From contig NZ_CP093442.1 in the NCBI RefSeq assembly GCF_022814725.1, positions 1,612,001-1,676,000 of the forward strand: DNA of 64,000 bases, written 5' to 3'. Within the stretch, counting starts at the first letter, position 1. The number at the start of each line of letters is the position of its first letter. This document shows, in pieces, positions 2,584 to 59,236 of this stretch. Made by a program: the position numbers and the translations under genes. This stretch comes from Bdellovibrio reynosensis (GTDB taxonomy: Bacteria > Bdellovibrionota > Bdellovibrionia > Bdellovibrionales > Bdellovibrionaceae). The notes under the pieces are model-generated. The model was not told the DNA's origin. It saw nothing but the letters and a program-made list of their open reading frames with translations, and did no database searches.

Positions 2584-2595
2584 CTACACCAAACA

Positions 2596-2720
2596 GAAGC
2601 AGTCAAAATGCCCCAGTCGCAAGGCGGAGGGGGTTTCCCGCAGCGCAGGCGTAGTAGCGCTACGTCGGAGCGAGGACAAACCCATTCCAACGCAGTCGAA
2701 TGGGGTATTTTCACCGCTTC
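2596..2720. repeat. Palindromic intergenic repeat, family A, copy 1 (convergent junction)
   Basis: The outer arms start with GAAGC (2596-2600) and end with GCTTC (2716-2720). They continue inward as AAAATGCCCCA and TGGGGTATTTT. Conserved inner boxes are CGCAAGGCGGAG on the left and CCAACGCAGTCG on the right. Between them is a hairpin with stem CGTAG/CTACG (2650-2664) followed by TCGGAGCGAGGACA. The element sits between the stop of a plus-strand gene and the stop of tpiA. It shares boxes with 5134-5242 and 50084-50169. A-rich and T-rich stretches flank the arms, so it could terminate transcription in both directions. Confidence 0.85.
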
Positions 2721-2734
2721 CCCAATCGAAGAAC

Positions 2735-3874: not shown

Positions 3875-5077
3875 TTATCTCTTAGATCTTAAGATCTCTA
3901 AACCTGGAAGTTTATCACCTTGAAGATATTCAAGGGAGGCACCACCACCTGTAGAGATGTGAGTCATTTTGTCAGCAAAACCAGACGCTTCTGCTGCAGC
4001 TGCTGAATCACCACCACCGACGATTTTTGTAGCATTGCTTTCAGCGATCGCTTTAGCCACACCGAAAGTGCCTTTTGAAAACGCAGGATTTTCAAAGATG
4101 CCCATGGGACCATTCCAGAAAATAGTTCCAGCTTCCATCAAAGCTGCTGTGTAAGAACGAAGGGTTTGAGGCCCAATGTCTACACCCAACTCATCTTCAG
4201 AGATAACAACGTCTTTTGTCGTACGAGCGTTTGCAGTATCCGTGATACCCTTTGTCGCTACGTGATCCACTGGCAACAAGATTGTTTTGTTACGAGCTTC
4301 AATACGTTCAATCATTTCTTTTGCGTATTTAACTTTGTCGTTTTCAACCAAAGACTTACCAACTGGATGCCCCATCGCCTTAAGGAATGTGTACGCCATA
4401 GCGCCACCAATGATGAAGCCGTCAACAACGTCCATCAATCGTTCGATAACCGCGATCTTGTCAGAAACTTTCGCGCCACCCATAACAGCCAAGTAAGGGC
4501 GTTTTGGATTTTGCAATAGTGAATCAAGCATATTGATTTCTTTTTCAATCAAGAAACCAATACCTTTATCTTTCATCACTGACGGTAAAGCATGAATTGT
4601 CGCGTGCGCACGGTGGGAAGCACCGAAAGCATCGTTGATATAGATGTCAGTGTAGTTTGCGATTTTTTGTGCGAATTCGATGGAATCCTTAGTCTCCCCT
4701 TCTTCATAACGAACGTTTTCAAGAAGGATCAGCTGATTCTTTTTCAAAGATTGTAAAAGATGTTTAGGAGCATCTGAATCTGGGTCTTCAACCAGGATCA
4801 CTTCCGCATTCAAGTGCTCTTGAAGACGTTTTGCCACAGGCTCTAAAGAATATTCTTTATCGTCTTTAGATTTTGGACGACCCAAGTGAGACGCCAAAAC
4901 AAGTTTCGCGCCTTTTTCCATGCAATGTTTAATTGTAGGCAAAGAAGCGGTGATACGGTTTTCATCAGTGATCTTTCCGTTTTCCATTGGAACGTTCAAA
5001 TCAAGACGCAAGAAAACCACTTTGCCATCAAGTTCAAAATCACGAACTGTTTTAATACCCTTTAGACCATTTGCCAT
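3875..5077 (-). CDS. pgk: Phosphoglycerate kinase
   Basis: This glycolytic enzyme makes ATP and 3-phosphoglycerate from 1,3-bisphosphoglycerate. It has 400 residues, a normal bacterial length. Recognisable blocks are the N-terminal FLRLDLNVPMENGKI substrate loop, LASHLGRPK, VLLEN-type LLENVRYEEGE, the hinge sequence VMGGAKVSDKIAV, and the nucleotide-binding KIVGGGDSAAAAE near the C-terminus. The ATG at 5077 starts MANGLKGIKTV. The 244-base gap to gapA upstream carries a long structured repeat, so expression may be partly uncoupled from gapA. Confidence 0.97.
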   Translation of the reverse strand: MANGLKGIKTVRDFELDGKVVFLRLDLNVPMENGKITDENRITASLPTIKHCMEKGAKLVLASHLGRPKSKDDKEYSLEPVAKRLQEHLNAEVILVEDPDSDAPKHLLQSLKKNQLILLENVRYEEGETKDSIEFAQKIANYTDIYINDAFGASHRAHATIHALPSVMKDKGIGFLIEKEINMLDSLLQNPKRPYLAVMGGAKVSDKIAVIERLMDVVDGFIIGGAMAYTFLKAMGHPVGKSLVENDKVKYAKEMIERIEARNKTILLPVDHVATKGITDTANARTTKDVVISEDELGVDIGPQTLRSYTAALMEAGTIFWNGPMGIFENPAFSKGTFGVAKAIAESNATKIVGGGDSAAAAEASGFADKMTHISTGGGASLEYLQGDKLPGLEILRSKR

Positions 5078-5133
5078 AACGTACTTCCCTTAAGAAATAA
5101 AATCAAAAAAACTAAGACGAACGAGCGACCGCT

Positions 5134-5242
5134 CAAAATGGTTCAGCCGCAAGGCGGAGCGGACTTACCGCAGCGGAGGTGTGGCAGCGCCACATCGGAG
5201 CGAGGACATGGCCGATCCAACGCAGTCGGATGGGCCATTTTG
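5134..5242. repeat. Palindromic intergenic repeat, family A, copy 2 (between gapA and pgk)
   Basis: The arms are CAAAATGG...CCATTTTG (5134-5140 and 5235-5242). The same inner boxes as copy 1 are present (CGCAAGGCGGAG and CCAACGCAGTCG). The central hairpin has stem TGTGG/CCACA (5180-5194), against CGTAG/CTACG in copy 1, so two base pairs differ and both are compensated. This is the only copy lying between two genes of the same direction, where it could attenuate read-through from gapA into pgk. Confidence 0.85.
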
Positions 5243-5246
5243 TTGC

Positions 5247-5310
5247 GGGCTCCTGCCCTTACCCTCCTTCGGAGGGCTTCGCGAAGAAATGCCGTGATGG
5301 CATTTCTTTC
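5247..5310. repeat. Hairpin-chain module shared with 59107-59170
   Basis: This stretch is a run of small stem-loops: GGGC/GCCC (5247-5258), CCCTCC/GGAGGG (5262-5276), CTTCGCGAAG (5277-5286) and GAAATGCC/GGCATTTC (5286-5306). The same order (GGGCTCCTGCCCT, a CCTTCGG hairpin, CGCG, then an A/T-rich hairpin) occurs inside the family B repeat at 59107-59170. There the last hairpin has a different but equally self-complementary sequence. It ends just before the gapA stop codon. Confidence 0.75.
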
Positions 5311-5321
5311 AGCGGTTGCGA

Positions 5322-6329
5322 TTATAGGCCTTTTGCGGCCATGTGCAAGGCTACGTCTACCATTCTGTTAGAGAAACCAGTTTCGTTGTCGTACCAAGAA
5401 AGCACTTTCACCATGCGCGGACCAACTACCATTGTGGAAGCAAGATCCACGATTGATGAATAAGGGCTGCCGTTGAAATCAACGCTCACTAGTTCGCCAT
5501 GTTCTACTGCAAGGATGCCTTTCAATGCGCCTTTGGAAGCAGCGATCAAGGCTTCGTTCACAGATTCTCTAGTAACATCTTTTTTCGCAGTGAATGTGAA
5601 ATCCACCAAAGACACGTTCGGTGTTGGAACGCGCACAGAGATACCGTCAATTTTACCTTTTAGTTCAGGCAACACAAGTCCTACGTTTTTCGCAGCGCCT
5701 GTTGTTGTCGGAATCATGCTCACCGCAGCAGCGCGGGCACGGCGCAAATCTTTGTGAGGAGCATCCAAGATTTTTTGGTCATTTGTGTAAGAGTGAACAG
5801 TCATCATAGTACCGTGTTCGATACCGAATGTTTCGTTCAAAACTTTAGCCAAAGGAGCCAAGCAGTTCGTTGTGCAAGAAGCGTTAGATACAACTTGGTG
5901 CTTAGATGGATCGTAGGCATCGTGATTGATACCGTAAACCATAGTTAGGTCAGCACCTTTTTCTGCAGGACCAGAAACCAAAACTCTTTTTGCGCCTGCA
6001 TTGATGTGGCCCATGAACTCAGCTTTATCTTTAAATGCGCCAGTGCACTCAAGAACCAAGTCAACGCCAAGATCTTTCCAAGGAACTTCAGCTGGGTTGC
6101 GAGTTTTAGAAACCGCAATTTTTTTACCATTAACGATAAGGTTGTGACCTTCAGTAGAAACGTCACCTTTGAAAACGCCATGTGCTGAATCGTATTTTAG
6201 AAGATGAGCATCACCCTCGATGCTGTCTAGAGAGTTGATTCCGACGATATCTAGCTTTTCAAAACCAGCGCGGAAAAGTACACGACCAATACGACCAAAA
6301 CCGTTGATGCCAACGCGTAACTTAGACAT
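5322..6329 (-). CDS. gap: Glyceraldehyde-3-phosphate dehydrogenase, with NADP-type cofactor pocket
   Basis: I start at ATG 6329 (MSKLRVGINGFGRIGR) because AAGGAG lies 5 bases upstream, which gives 335 residues. Catalytic Cys152 (SNASCTTNCLAPL) and His179 (MTVHSYTND) are present. In NAD-specific enzymes the adenosine ribose is held by an Asp after IN. Here the sequence is INSLDS, with Ser33 at that place. The usual Leu before PHKDLRR is Ala190. Both changes are known determinants that shift GAPDH towards NADP, so dual or NADP use is inferred. It is first in the run gap-pgk-MAPEG-tpiA. A terminator for the upstream gene precedes it. Confidence 0.95.
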   Translation of the reverse strand: MSKLRVGINGFGRIGRVLFRAGFEKLDIVGINSLDSIEGDAHLLKYDSAHGVFKGDVSTEGHNLIVNGKKIAVSKTRNPAEVPWKDLGVDLVLECTGAFKDKAEFMGHINAGAKRVLVSGPAEKGADLTMVYGINHDAYDPSKHQVVSNASCTTNCLAPLAKVLNETFGIEHGTMMTVHSYTNDQKILDAPHKDLRRARAAAVSMIPTTTGAAKNVGLVLPELKGKIDGISVRVPTPNVSLVDFTFTAKKDVTRESVNEALIAASKGALKGILAVEHGELVSVDFNGSPYSSIVDLASTMVVGPRMVKVLSWYDNETGFSNRMVDVALHMAAKGL

Positions 6330-6373
6330 GATGTCTCCTTTTTTAAACCCCCACAATATCGACCCATCAGACG

Positions 6374-13076: not shown

Positions 13077-13241
13077 GGGCTTTTGCAGACTGAAGGGCTC
13101 CATTTGCAACGGACCGAAGAGAGGCCTTCGTCGGCGCCACGACGGCGCGAACCGCAACGAAGTTGCGGCGACGATTGAGCCTGGATGGCGTGCCGACCGA
13201 AGCGTCCGGTGTAAATGGAGCCCTTCAGTCTGCAAAAGCCC
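13077..13241. repeat. Long palindromic intergenic repeat, family B, copy 1 (convergent junction)
   Basis: The outer arms of 29 bases (13077-13105 and 13213-13241) are perfect reverse complements of each other. The inner part holds GGCGCCACGACGGCGCG and the hairpin CCGCAAC-GAA-GTTGCGG (13152-13168). The segments 13123-13149 and 13150-13190 match, in inverted orientation, 59168-59194 (25 of 27 bases) and 59061-59101 (34 of 41). The element fills the gap between the stops of two convergent genes. Bases 12994-13076 before it contain only a weak GTGGC/GCCAC hairpin. Confidence 0.88.
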
Positions 13242-14358: not shown

Positions 14359-15825
14359 TCAAAAACATCCAGACCCTGTCGCAGGCTCTGCCATTTGGCG
14401 GCAACGCACTTGGGCGCTGGAACATTTCACACGAACATGGAAATGATCGTCATGGTCTGTATCTGGAATCAATCGGCGCAGGGTTTCAGCTGGCAAACTG
14501 GTTGTGTCACCTTTCCGCAACTCTCCTTTTTGAATGGCAAGCCTGCAAAGCTCGTTTTTAAGTGCCTTATGGATGAAAATTCTGTCCACTAGCTTTGTGC
14601 CCACGATACTTTTAAATAACTTCCAGGAAACCTCAGGCATCCATTGGCTGTGGGGCTTGCTTCCAGAAACAGCAGATACAAAGCTCTTCTGCGATGATCC
14701 GTTGCTAAAATAAAAAGCCACATCCGCATCAAGACCATTTTGATGGGATTTATGTCGGCCTAACTTTCCACCGCTTTGGCGAGAAGTATCGCCAATTGCT
14801 AAAGTCTGCCCGCTCACTTCGGCATTTGTAAACTTGCCCATTTGTTGAATCAAATACGCCAGTTCATTTGTAGCAAAATGAGTTTTTCTTTCGGGACGAA
14901 TAATTTTAAATCCTGGATCCGAAGTCTTCTGCTGAAGATCTAGTAGGCTCACAGCATTTTGCAACCAACCTAAGTTCACAGAACCAATCGCTTGGTTGGC
15001 TTTCGGTATCTTAGCCACCGGGTCCTGCGAAGGACGCGGTTGAGGCCTTACAGGATCTTCTTTTTTAGGCTCCTCGCGCTTTGGTTCTTCTTTTTTTGGC
15101 TCTGGCTTTGGCTCACGTTTAGGTTCCTCACGCTTCGGCTCTTCCGGCTTTGGCTCTTCTTTTTTTGGTTCTTCTGGCTTTGGATCTTCCTTAGGCTCCT
15201 CTTTTTTTGGAGCTGGTTTTACATCCAACAGTTTGTCGATATCTTCTTTTTGGCTACCAATGTATTGGCCTGGTTCACCATCAGCGTGGTCTGATTCATC
15301 TTCAGATTCTAATTCTTCATCGGTAATATGATCTTCTTCTGTAACTTTCTCTCCAGAATCTTGATGGGATTCAACTTGGTGATGATAAACCACTCCGTTA
15401 ATCGCAAGGTAAATATCGATAAATGAAGAGGTACAAGTGTTTTCCTGACTTAAGCAGGTCGCTTTGGCTGCGACTTGCAATCCTTCTTTCAATTTTAAAC
15501 TTGGGTGGGAACGCAATTCAATGAAACCTTCTGCATCTAGAATCCCGTTAAGGTCTAAATCTTGAGATTCGATCTTACGACCATCTAGACTTAAATATTC
15601 GACTTTACCACGGACTTTCATTGAACGAGTTTCTTTGTCAAAAAGAACCGACATATCTTGAATGCGTGTCGCACCTTTGGCTACACGATAGCCTTCAAGG
15701 TCAACGATGGTTGGTTTTTGGGGTTCCGCGGTTGTTGTCGCAGGCATTCCTGTTTCCCGTGAATCTGGCGCACAGGCTGACACTAAAAAAGGAATTAATA
15801 ATAAGCTGCGAACTAGTTTCTTCAT
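14359..15825 (-). CDS. MepA-like murein endopeptidase lipoprotein with charged KPE linker
   Basis: The start at ATG 15825 has GGAGTG upstream and gives 488 residues. LVSAC makes Cys18 the lipid anchor. Residues 30-150 form a beta-rich domain with a Cys pair. Residues 155-200 are very acidic. Residues 203-260 are a low-complexity run of Lys/Pro/Glu units, likely a spacer through the periplasm. The C-terminal 200 residues match peptidase M74 (penicillin-insensitive murein endopeptidase): GRHKSHQNGLDADVAF with His361, Asp366 and Asp368, and DHDDHFHVRVKC with His461 and His463. It should cleave peptidoglycan cross-links. In a predator this could act on self or prey wall. Confidence 0.85.
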   Translation of the reverse strand: MKKLVRSLLLIPFLVSACAPDSRETGMPATTTAEPQKPTIVDLEGYRVAKGATRIQDMSVLFDKETRSMKVRGKVEYLSLDGRKIESQDLDLNGILDAEGFIELRSHPSLKLKEGLQVAAKATCLSQENTCTSSFIDIYLAINGVVYHHQVESHQDSGEKVTEEDHITDEELESEDESDHADGEPGQYIGSQKEDIDKLLDVKPAPKKEEPKEDPKPEEPKKEEPKPEEPKREEPKREPKPEPKKEEPKREEPKKEDPVRPQPRPSQDPVAKIPKANQAIGSVNLGWLQNAVSLLDLQQKTSDPGFKIIRPERKTHFATNELAYLIQQMGKFTNAEVSGQTLAIGDTSRQSGGKLGRHKSHQNGLDADVAFYFSNGSSQKSFVSAVSGSKPHSQWMPEVSWKLFKSIVGTKLVDRIFIHKALKNELCRLAIQKGELRKGDTTSLPAETLRRLIPDTDHDDHFHVRVKCSSAQVRCRQMAEPATGSGCF

Positions 15826-15985
15826 GATTTTCACTCCAGAATAGGATCCCGTCATTGGTATCCATCTGCGGCCTAGGTTGCAGAATGTATGCCTTCGACT
15901 TTAAGGTTCAAACCACCTTAAATTACAAATGACCTGTCAAAGTTTTAGATAGAGCAGCCGTAAATTGTTTGCCATACTTAAAGCC

Positions 15986-50073: not shown

Positions 50074-50083
50074 GATTAATCAA

Positions 50084-50169
50084 GGCTGATCAAAAGTGGT
50101 CAAGCGCAAGGCGGAGGGGTTGACGACACCCCCCCGACAACGCAGTCGCTTGGCCGCTTTTCATCAGCC
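50084..50169. repeat. Palindromic intergenic repeat, family A, copy 3 (convergent junction, short form)
   Basis: The left arm from GGCTGAT (50084-50090) through AAAAGTGGTCAAGCG pairs with the right arm CGCTTGGCCGCTTTT...ATCAGCC (ending 50169). The two left-right differences in the inner arm are G-U compatible. The conserved boxes CGCAAGGCGGAG and CAACGCAGTCG are present. The central hairpin of copies 1 and 2 is missing. The right arm runs into the last codons and stop of uup, so a structural element and coding sequence overlap. Confidence 0.82.
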
Positions 50170-51978
50170 GCCACTGGATTTCTTTTCTAATTCTTCCCAG
50201 CGCTTATAATTCTTGTCAATTTTCTCTTGGGTTTCAGAAATCTGCTTATACAGTTCTTGAACCTTCGATGCCTGACTTACAATTTCAGGCTTAGCGGATT
50301 CGGCCTGCAACTCTTCAAGTTTCTTTTCTAATTCCTGAATAGTCGCTTCCATGTTTTCTAACTCAAACTTTTCTTTAAAGGACAACTTCACTGGTTTACC
50401 GCTAGCTTTCGCTGCTTCTTTTTTCGCGGTATTTTTAAGCTCTATAGCTTCCAGTTCCTTTTGTTCTTCAAACCATTCTTCCCACTGCAAGTACCCGGCG
50501 AAGTTTTCTAAAGACGTTGTACCATCAGGTCTTTTATGGAAGGCCATGATTTGCGACGCCACTTGATCCATAAAATAACGATCATGGGTTACTAGAATCA
50601 CGGCACCGTTAAACTCTTTTAAAGACTCTTCAAGCACAGTCAGTGTCGCCACATCAAGATCGTTCGTAGGCTCATCCAGAATCAGAACTTGGGCTTCATT
50701 TAACATCAACTGGGCCAAACGCAATCTGCTTTGTTCACCACCAGAAAGCTTTTCTACTGGCAGATCCATTTGCTGGCGATTGAATTGAAAACGCTCTAGA
50801 TAGCTGCGGGCAAATACGTATTGTCCTTGATAGTGAACGTAATCACCTTCAGGGCAGATGTTTTTTAGGACCGATTCTTTAGGTCTTAAAGTCTCTCGAT
50901 TCTGTTCAAAGTAAGCGACCTTAAGTTTATCAGCCCGAGCGACACGACCCGTGTCAGGCTGTTCTTCACCTAACATGATACGAATCAATGTGGACTTACC
51001 AGAACCGTTATCACCCAATAAAGCTAAGCGCGTTTTTGGATTTACAAGGTAAGTGAAATCTTTAAATAGCACGCGGCCATTGTAAGCTTTAGTGACATGA
51101 TCTAGTTCAATCAGTTTTTGCGGATTGCGATCAGCATCTTTAAATTCAATTTTAGCGACACGAGCTGCATTCTTTTGTGTTAACTCTTGCACGTCATCTT
51201 TAAGTGAACCAGCACGTTCGATACGGGCCTTTTGCTTTGTTTGACGGGCTTTAGCTCCCCGACGTAACCATTCAGTTTCACGGCGAAGGGTGTTCTTTAA
51301 AACAACTTCGCGTTGCTCTTGTGCTGCCATCTGTTGGTCTTTAGCTTCAAGATATTCTAAATATCCGCCCTTAACTGAAAGAAGGTAGTTGGGATTTTTA
51401 GGATCAAGATCAAAAATTTTATTGGTCGCTCTTTGTAAGAACAAGCGATCATGGGTGATGATCAAAGTTGCAAACGAAGCTTGCGCTAAAAATTCCTCAA
51501 GCCAAAGAATACTTGAAACGTCCAAGTGATTCGTCGGCTCATCCAGCATGAGTAGTTCAGGTTCTAGAACCAACTCGCGGGCTAAAGCGACGCGCTTTCT
51601 CCAACCACCGGAAAGATCTTTAACTAAAAAGCTTTCACCGAATTGAGTTAGTTCTAAGCGCGCCATCCATTCATAGGCGTTGGCGATAGCTTCGTGCGGA
51701 TCGTGGGCTTTGCTAAGAACCGCATCAAGAATAGTTTCGTTATCTTTGAAAACGGGAGTTTGCTCTAAGAAACCAAGGCGCAAACCTTTTTTCGCGGTGA
51801 CATCACCAGCGTCTGCTTCCATTTGACCGGCAAGAATTCTTAATAACGTGGATTTACCGGCACCGTTAGGGCCGACTAATCCCACACGCTCGCCGTCTTC
51901 AATGCCTAAACTGACATTGCGAAACAGGGTTTTACCGGCGAAAGCTTTTTCTAATTTATAGGTACTAATAAGAAGCAT
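50164..51978 (-). CDS. uup: ABC-F ATPase, Uup-like
   Basis: The product has 604 residues with two ABC domains and no membrane part. The Walker A motifs are GPNGAGKST and GDNGSGKST. The signatures are LSGGWRKRVALAREL and LSGGEQSRLRLAQLML. The linker between them is basic (RRGAKARQTKQKARIERAG), as in Uup. A coiled-coil C-terminus (about 535-604, KFELENMEATIQELEKKLEEL) is the DNA/RNA-binding tail of this subfamily. Uup acts on ribosomes and influences transposon excision and DNA branch handling. It lies 11 bases downstream of a protease gene on the same strand. Confidence 0.92.
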   Translation of the reverse strand: MLLISTYKLEKAFAGKTLFRNVSLGIEDGERVGLVGPNGAGKSTLLRILAGQMEADAGDVTAKKGLRLGFLEQTPVFKDNETILDAVLSKAHDPHEAIANAYEWMARLELTQFGESFLVKDLSGGWRKRVALARELVLEPELLMLDEPTNHLDVSSILWLEEFLAQASFATLIITHDRLFLQRATNKIFDLDPKNPNYLLSVKGGYLEYLEAKDQQMAAQEQREVVLKNTLRRETEWLRRGAKARQTKQKARIERAGSLKDDVQELTQKNAARVAKIEFKDADRNPQKLIELDHVTKAYNGRVLFKDFTYLVNPKTRLALLGDNGSGKSTLIRIMLGEEQPDTGRVARADKLKVAYFEQNRETLRPKESVLKNICPEGDYVHYQGQYVFARSYLERFQFNRQQMDLPVEKLSGGEQSRLRLAQLMLNEAQVLILDEPTNDLDVATLTVLEESLKEFNGAVILVTHDRYFMDQVASQIMAFHKRPDGTTSLENFAGYLQWEEWFEEQKELEAIELKNTAKKEAAKASGKPVKLSFKEKFELENMEATIQELEKKLEELQAESAKPEIVSQASKVQELYKQISETQEKIDKNYKRWEELEKKSSGG

Positions 51979-59014: not shown

Positions 59015-59236
59015 GGGATTTGCTTAGCTATGGGCTTTGGTATCTCTCACTACGCTGGCGCGCCATCCGGGCTCAGTCACCGCCGCAGCTTTGCTGCGGT
59101 TGTTGAGGGCTCCTGCCCTCAACCCCTTCGGGGCTTACGCGCAAAAATAGCATCCTGCTATTTTTGGCGCGCCGTCGTGGCGCCGGTGAAGGCCGGCTTC
59201 GTGGGAGACACCAAAGCCCATAGCTAAGCAAATCCC
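59015..59236. repeat. Long palindromic intergenic repeat, family B, copy 2 (convergent junction)
   Basis: The outer arms of 27 bases (59015-59041 and 59210-59236) are perfect reverse complements and differ in sequence from the arms at 13077. The core segments 59061-59101 and 59168-59194 match copy 1 in inverted orientation. In the hairpin CCGCAGC-AAA-GCTGCGG one A-T pair of copy 1 is replaced by G-C. An extra chain of hairpins (59103-59166, including AAAAATAGCA/TGCTATTTTT) is shared with 5247-5310. The gap 58919-59330 holds the fusA terminator, this element and the terminator at 59277. I see no gene in it. Confidence 0.88.

Follow-up and report, generated by a model that had tools for sequence, protein, structure and literature searches.

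The window analyzed here is a stretch of 64,000 nucleotides (positions 1612001 to 1676000) of the single-contig genome of Bdellovibrio reynosensis (3,582,323 bp). It carries members of the structured repeat families A, B, and M, including the B element under study, whose outer 45-nt arms (59015-59059 and 59192-59236) are 89% complementary. The following features are relevant here:

59015..59236, no strand assigned: B element copy 2, a long palindrome with a branched head (inverted arms, head split by M; read from the sequence), with the fusA terminator on one side and the terminator of the opposing gene on the other
59015..59059, no strand assigned: left arm of B copy 2, locus-specific, pairing with 59192-59236; orthologues have other arms
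59192..59236, no strand assigned: right arm of B copy 2 (inverted-arm match)
59050..59101, minus strand: conserved B head, part 1, ending at M (profile match 132-183 after the fusA stop)
59168..59200, minus strand: conserved B head, part 2, beyond M (profile match 250-282 after the fusA stop)
59101..59166, plus strand: M, an inserted independent hairpin repeat with three hairpins (covariance model match 1671101-1671166)
5241..5308, plus strand: M copy at the edge of a family A element (covariance model match 1617241-1617308), between the genes 3875-5077 and 5322-6356 (from open reading frames)
5133..5241, plus strand: family A element adjoining this M copy (direct repeat family D2, core match)
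2594..2723, plus strand: family A element without M (covariance model match 1614594-1614723)
50081..50173, plus strand: short family A element lacking both M and the middle hairpin
13077..13241, no strand assigned: B element copy 1, without M (arms 13077-13114 and 13204-13241, head 13115-13203)

A direct repeat with 15-nt spacing was also observed at 15052-15202, within a long minus-strand open reading frame (14359-15855).

An earlier note on this DNA had reported that 59107-59170 and 5247-5310 contain the same order of parts, as was confirmed by rereading both stretches, and that this insert is missing from the other B copy of the window (13077-13241), which is likewise correct. The note further described A and B as mosaic repeats that exchange modules and bear variable arms at a second level. 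The variable palindromic arms were borne out, both in the last hairpin of the insert and, to a greater extent, in B's outer arms, but the exchange of modules was not, as detailed below.

The M repeat and its placements

The insert, designated M, is an independent repeat of approximately 66 nt with three hairpins, whose boundaries were set by covariance model (59101-59166 and 5241-5308 in the window). It mostly starts with TG, closes with an A-run, a hairpin, and a T-run, and ends in ATTTTTG or ATTTTTT. The sequence GGGCTCCTGCCCT has nine exact copies in the whole 3.58-Mb genome, and its reversed pattern has none. A BLAST search of the same genome with the 75-nt insert returned 16 places, among them the insert itself at 100% and window positions 5240-5290 at 83% identity over the matched part (E 1e-5). 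With a covariance model (R1) built from 15 copies, 17 copies were detected in this genome and matches in 22 of 24 Bdellovibrio genomes; at E<=1e-6, covariance model matches extended to 27 of 66 genomes and 4 of 20 genera of the family. A 21-nt core pattern matched in four named contigs, three from Bdellovibrio and one from a Pseudobdellovibrio MAG. A phage origin was rejected, as a 19-nt exact M core had no matches in viral contigs. No published description of the A, B, or M repeats in Bdellovibrio was found in the open literature, most subscription journals lying outside this scope.

The last hairpin (helix 3) is indeed variable yet self-complementary, as the earlier note had stated. Among 88 distinct M rows, in an alignment fitted to the model, it was 98.7% paired with both-side changes in 9 of 10 pairs; an unfitted MAFFT alignment of 15 own-genome copies (14 distinct) gave 98.5% and 4 of 10 pairs, respectively. 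The 869 pair cells comprised 857 Watson-Crick, 1 G.U, 2 A.C, and 9 other combinations, with the pairs varying widely. Three variants (L166, L182, and L186) have a first-hairpin loop of the CATCG or CGTCG type, which resembles the B head, in place of TCCT, and one contig (L134) carries a head-to-tail pair of M copies in which the second is located at the T-run of the first. On the reverse strand, M displays AGGA/GGA loops that we take to resemble CsrA-type sites.

The sequence context of M was classified for 80 placements, which correspond to 92 covariance model matches minus 12 low-score, overlapping, or duplicate ones; of the 116 M matches tallied, the other 36 (two of them from this genome) lie outside the set. 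M was located in A (13), in B (15), in a terminator tail (19), at the GGTGCCTG repeat (6), at a GGACAG^TCCTCGC site (5), in a T-run (3), or elsewhere without an assignable class (19). These numbers include five placements reassigned by eye to A or B (L140, L142, L150, L152, and L155), the automatic count having been 12 in A, 11 in B, 2 near A or B, and 55 in neither. Thus 52 of 80 placements are in neither A nor B, and in 19 of these 52 M directly follows a terminator hairpin. Terminator-type positions accounted for 20 of 80 M sites, compared with 85 of 6400 positions drawn at random from these loci. The 15 full-length copies examined in this genome are distributed over B (four, L030-L033, with L030 being the copy at 59101), A or its edge (five, L035-L038 and L043), and the vicinity of the GGTGCCTG motif (six). 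A partial copy (L044) lies within A. None of the 13 own-genome B copies in alignment A2 contains the insert.

Several contexts of M include further repeats. GGTGCCTG stands immediately 5' of M in six own copies, and a further interspersed repeat with AAAAGGTGCCTGCTTC is present at L034, L039-L042, and L045, as well as at the fusA locus of G007 and G020. The target near GGACAG^TCCTCGC recurs in five genomes (L164, L165, L169, L170, and L185) and perhaps belongs to another structured repeat family.

Because the shared module is an independent repeat, with neither A nor B as its host in 52 of 80 placements, an exchange between A and B is not needed, and both families look mosaic because each can carry M. 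The earlier note had itself named an independent repeat mostly found alone as the outcome that would speak against mosaicism, and this is what was found. Recombination between A and B, with M as a shared domain moved by homologous recombination, is hence very improbable in our estimation. The presence of the same module in both families (13 A and 15 B placements) is in its favor, but the placements outside both families are not accounted for, and exchanged modules should share their joints. Instead, insertion points vary within either family. In A, M interrupts an internal loop around CGACTGCGTTG at several points (CGAC^TGCG, CTGCG^, CTGCGT^, and GCGTTG^). It runs antisense to A in 12 of 13 cases, a further argument against exchange; only L043, the copy at window position 5241, has the same sense, and it is located at A's edge. 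In B, M occupies different loops or junctions, with TC following the insertion point in 11 of 15 cases, and as read from the sequences most of these insertions appear to lie within a hairpin loop; in the own copies L030-L032, M is found between the second and third hairpins.

The fusA locus allows a comparison of occupied and empty sites. A B element, in one case partial, is present behind the fusA terminator in 10 of 23 genomes. It contains M in B. reynosensis alone and is empty in the other 9 of these 10 genomes, which likewise argues against module exchange. The feature at 59015-59236 is a nested insertion of M into B, and the simplest history would be that this B element received M after the split.

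Repeated origin in place, with M as a variant terminator or RNA element that is not mobile, would be compatible with the 19 of 80 copies that follow a terminator hairpin and with the A-run, hairpin, and T-run at M's end. However, the three-hairpin order recurs over the whole 66 nt with conserved TCCT-type loops, M interrupts A and B elements that become continuous again when their flanks are joined across it, and the B element at fusA is empty in other genomes. We consider such an origin highly unlikely. Rather, M is a small hairpin repeat interspersed in the genomes of Bdellovibrio and some relatives, and it has reached terminator T-runs as well as unpaired parts (hairpin loops, junctions, and internal loops) of larger structured repeats, A and B included.

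How M might move was addressed by comparing its borders and surroundings with those of known mobile elements. Target-site duplications were not seen above chance, with 0 or 1 matching nucleotides in 70 of 80 placements and in approximately 74 of 80 after random re-pairing of flanks; because of this, transposition of M is something we infer and do not observe directly. No terminal inverted repeat of M was detected by eye, and M thus shows neither the target-site duplication nor the family-wide terminal inverted repeat of a MITE derived from a DDE transposon. The long inverted arms of B are locus-specific and thus do not qualify as family-wide terminal inverted repeats either. No transposase or integrase for M was identified in the loci tested. 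Y1 transposase matches are present in 21 of 24 genomes of the genus, and eight Y1 loci (of about 80 Y1 matches listed) contained no M and no A copies; one genome (G013) has 5 M and 44 A matches and no Y1 match. The GTAG and CGTC tags of REP sequences are not conserved in M and its 12-nt flanks, occurring in 3 and 10 of 80 placements on the M strand and in 14 and 18 of 80 on the opposite strand, and membership of M in the GTAG/CGTC REP superfamilies was rejected on this basis. Matches to Rfam 15 covariance models at E<=1 were absent from five loci (L007, L024, L016, L008, and L046), and a known structured RNA family was rejected for these loci.

Pairing and turnover of the B arms

The head of B is conserved and branched. 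Among the 13 own-genome copies (78 pairs), heads were 84.7% identical, and arm identity between copies was 55.3% versus 48.2% after shuffling. Within the same copies, the two arms were 96.4% complementary. A count over 55 copies, made without the duplicate loci L062, L083, L064, L085, L065, and L088 and without any G018 copies, gave 1050 Watson-Crick pairs out of 1083 at 20 to 40 nt from the head, together with 7 G.T, 11 A.C, and 15 other combinations. Wobble pairs are thus almost lacking in the variable arms, with no strand asymmetry. Counts over whole arms showed an excess of A.C over G.T that is located mostly beyond 40 nt from the head in position-resolved counts and that we provisionally attribute to the conserved element end.

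B arms turn over between species while staying paired. For both B copies of the window, the arms of the orthologues are quite different (L106/L115 and L105/L127). The sister species G001 and G018 share orthologous B copies, and in 13 arm comparisons 321 pairs were the same, 22 had been replaced by a different Watson-Crick pair through changes in both arms, 13 differed on one side, and 34 were unmappable. Seven of the 13 one-sided changes come from a single comparison (L093/L112), leaving six without it. In L097/L117, nine double and no single changes were found. In L094/L119, most of both arms had changed and both copies were still paired at 28 to 29 of 30 positions, with 18 of 30 pairs unmappable between the species. 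Furthermore, arm differences at the fusA locus include G-C to C-G swaps that no wobble intermediate bridges, and two pair swaps between G021 and G022/G012 were each made in both arms. In the L093/L112 pair, the right arm is unchanged and the left arm differs at seven pairs, as does its outer flank; this one-arm difference may represent a recombination joint or an intermediate.

Rewriting of one arm from the other during replication, by intrapalindrome template switching, would explain why the B arms drift yet remain near-perfect Watson-Crick partners. B itself is a DNA palindrome that occurs interspersed in the genome, and its branched head is conserved and its arms are hypervariable. Template switching predicts paired changes without one-sided intermediates, and the orthologous arms gave 22 double versus 13 single changes, with 34 pairs unmapped. 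Beside several orthologous B pairs, the intergenic flanks have diverged to the same degree as the arms; a mutation rate above that of neutral DNA is thus not required for the arms, which weakens arguments from rate.

The same arms could have arisen if selection on a transcribed RNA stem or a cruciform kept them paired through ordinary compensatory mutations, with no special copying. The conserved, branched head makes some function of B likely, orthologous arms do change by paired substitutions, the adjoining intergenic DNA has also diverged, and a strong demand for perfect pairing could yield arms of this kind. However, selection on an RNA stem does not readily account for the near-absence of wobble and of strand asymmetry (7 G.T and 11 A.C among 1083 pairs), for the single G.U among 869 cells of M helix 3 despite its widely varying pairs, or for several G-C to C-G swaps lacking a bridging wobble state; moreover, the B element at fusA sits between two terminators. 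Selection is therefore regarded as the rather unlikely reading, though one to be taken seriously, and DNA-level arm copying is favored over it.

Ectopic gene conversion, in which arms would be swapped as whole blocks between loci, could explain why 26 of 2685 arm pairs share words of at least 11 nt, compared with 1 of 2685 after shuffling. Yet the longest shared word measures 14 nt, many of the long ones represent the conserved outer end GATTTGG, and no arm copies another, so that we give this process very little credence. Overall, the nested insertion of M in an interspersed palindrome B whose arms are rewritten by template switching is probably the best explanation of the feature as a whole.

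Family A and replication polarity

Pairing in family A is of a different kind. Its stems (L010-L029) contain 57 G.U and 8 A.C pairs, with wobble positions fixed in 13 of 16 and 14 of 16 copies, as expected if the sense strand of A folds alone. There are thus two kinds of pairing, strand-specific in A and strand-symmetric with near-perfect palindromy in the B arms and in M. The seemingly strand-specific fold of A shows that selection on structure exists in these genomes, which lends the selection reading of the B arms some support.

Replication polarity was determined in the genomes with a located dnaA gene (10 for A, 11 for B and M), with dnaA taken as the origin, the terminus assumed to lie halfway around from it, and the length of G005 rounded. 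A replication-strand bias, which is a feature of IS200/IS605-type elements, was found for both A and M. Among the matches listed, the sense strand of A reads against fork movement in 105 of 111 copies, and 45 of 59 M copies are read in the direction of the fork; the polarity of B is weak (49 of 79). One of the six A exceptions is located at the presumed terminus. The direction of neighboring genes does not explain the polarity of A, because 19 of 20 own A loci obey the replication rule even though both neighbors are parallel in five and antiparallel in seven of them. Family A is accordingly a structured repeat almost strictly polarized by replication.

With regard to mechanism, M would insert via single-stranded DNA folded at the replication fork, through a putative trans-acting enzyme. 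A broader and more tentative proposition is that Bdellovibrio genomes harbor replication-coupled DNA structures, with conserved folded heads and arms that would be rewritten in concert, such that pairing is inherited and sequence is not. A would be oriented by the fork, and both A and B would offer landing sites for M in their unpaired loops, as terminator tails do. Repeat families are usually recognized by conserved sequence; B keeps its shape as the sequence of its arms turns over between species, and it thereby provides a natural record of the way in which palindromes remain palindromic. M, a small hairpin repeat, clearly prefers terminator tails and loops as its targets, and all three families can be tested in a culturable predatory bacterium.

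Relation to known systems

ERIC, Correia (NEMIS), and bcr elements are intergenic structured repeats in which internal insertions are possible and a single arm sequence is generally kept throughout the family. In contrast, the arms of B differ between copies.

REP sequences and BIMEs are short interspersed extragenic hairpins, some of which lie inside longer palindromes and some families of which have no known transposase, as portrayed in parts of PMC3733652 and PMC6006769. Judged by these parts, M resembles REP/BIME and RAYT (TnpA-REP) systems as a short interspersed hairpin repeat nested in longer palindromes. The main text of neither article mentions Bdellovibrio. M differs from REP/BIME in having three hairpins, in lacking a conserved GTAG/CGTC tag, and in its preference for terminator T-runs and the loops of other repeats, and from REP/RAYT systems in its absence from the eight Y1 loci tested (of about 80 matches listed). 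Transposition of the IS200/IS605 type involves hairpin recognition and a preference for the lagging-strand template, according to parts of PMC6006769, and a likeness to this type would be in keeping with the polarity of A relative to replication and with that of M, which is weaker. However, no transposase gene accompanies A or M in the loci tested, and the base preceding M is variable.

Template-switch mutations have reportedly been described for rRNA and microRNA stems, reporter sites, and yeast genes, and there is said to be work in Escherichia coli as well. Quasipalindrome correction by template switching, as set out in parts of PMC8794818, is an established source of mutations: one arm serves as the template for the other, and several paired changes are made together. 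With B, selection on the fold can be told apart from arm copying at the DNA level; those parts of PMC8794818 raise this question for RNA stems. Compared with the known cases, template switching would here have as its substrate an interspersed family in which the head is fixed and approximately 30 bp of arm are free.
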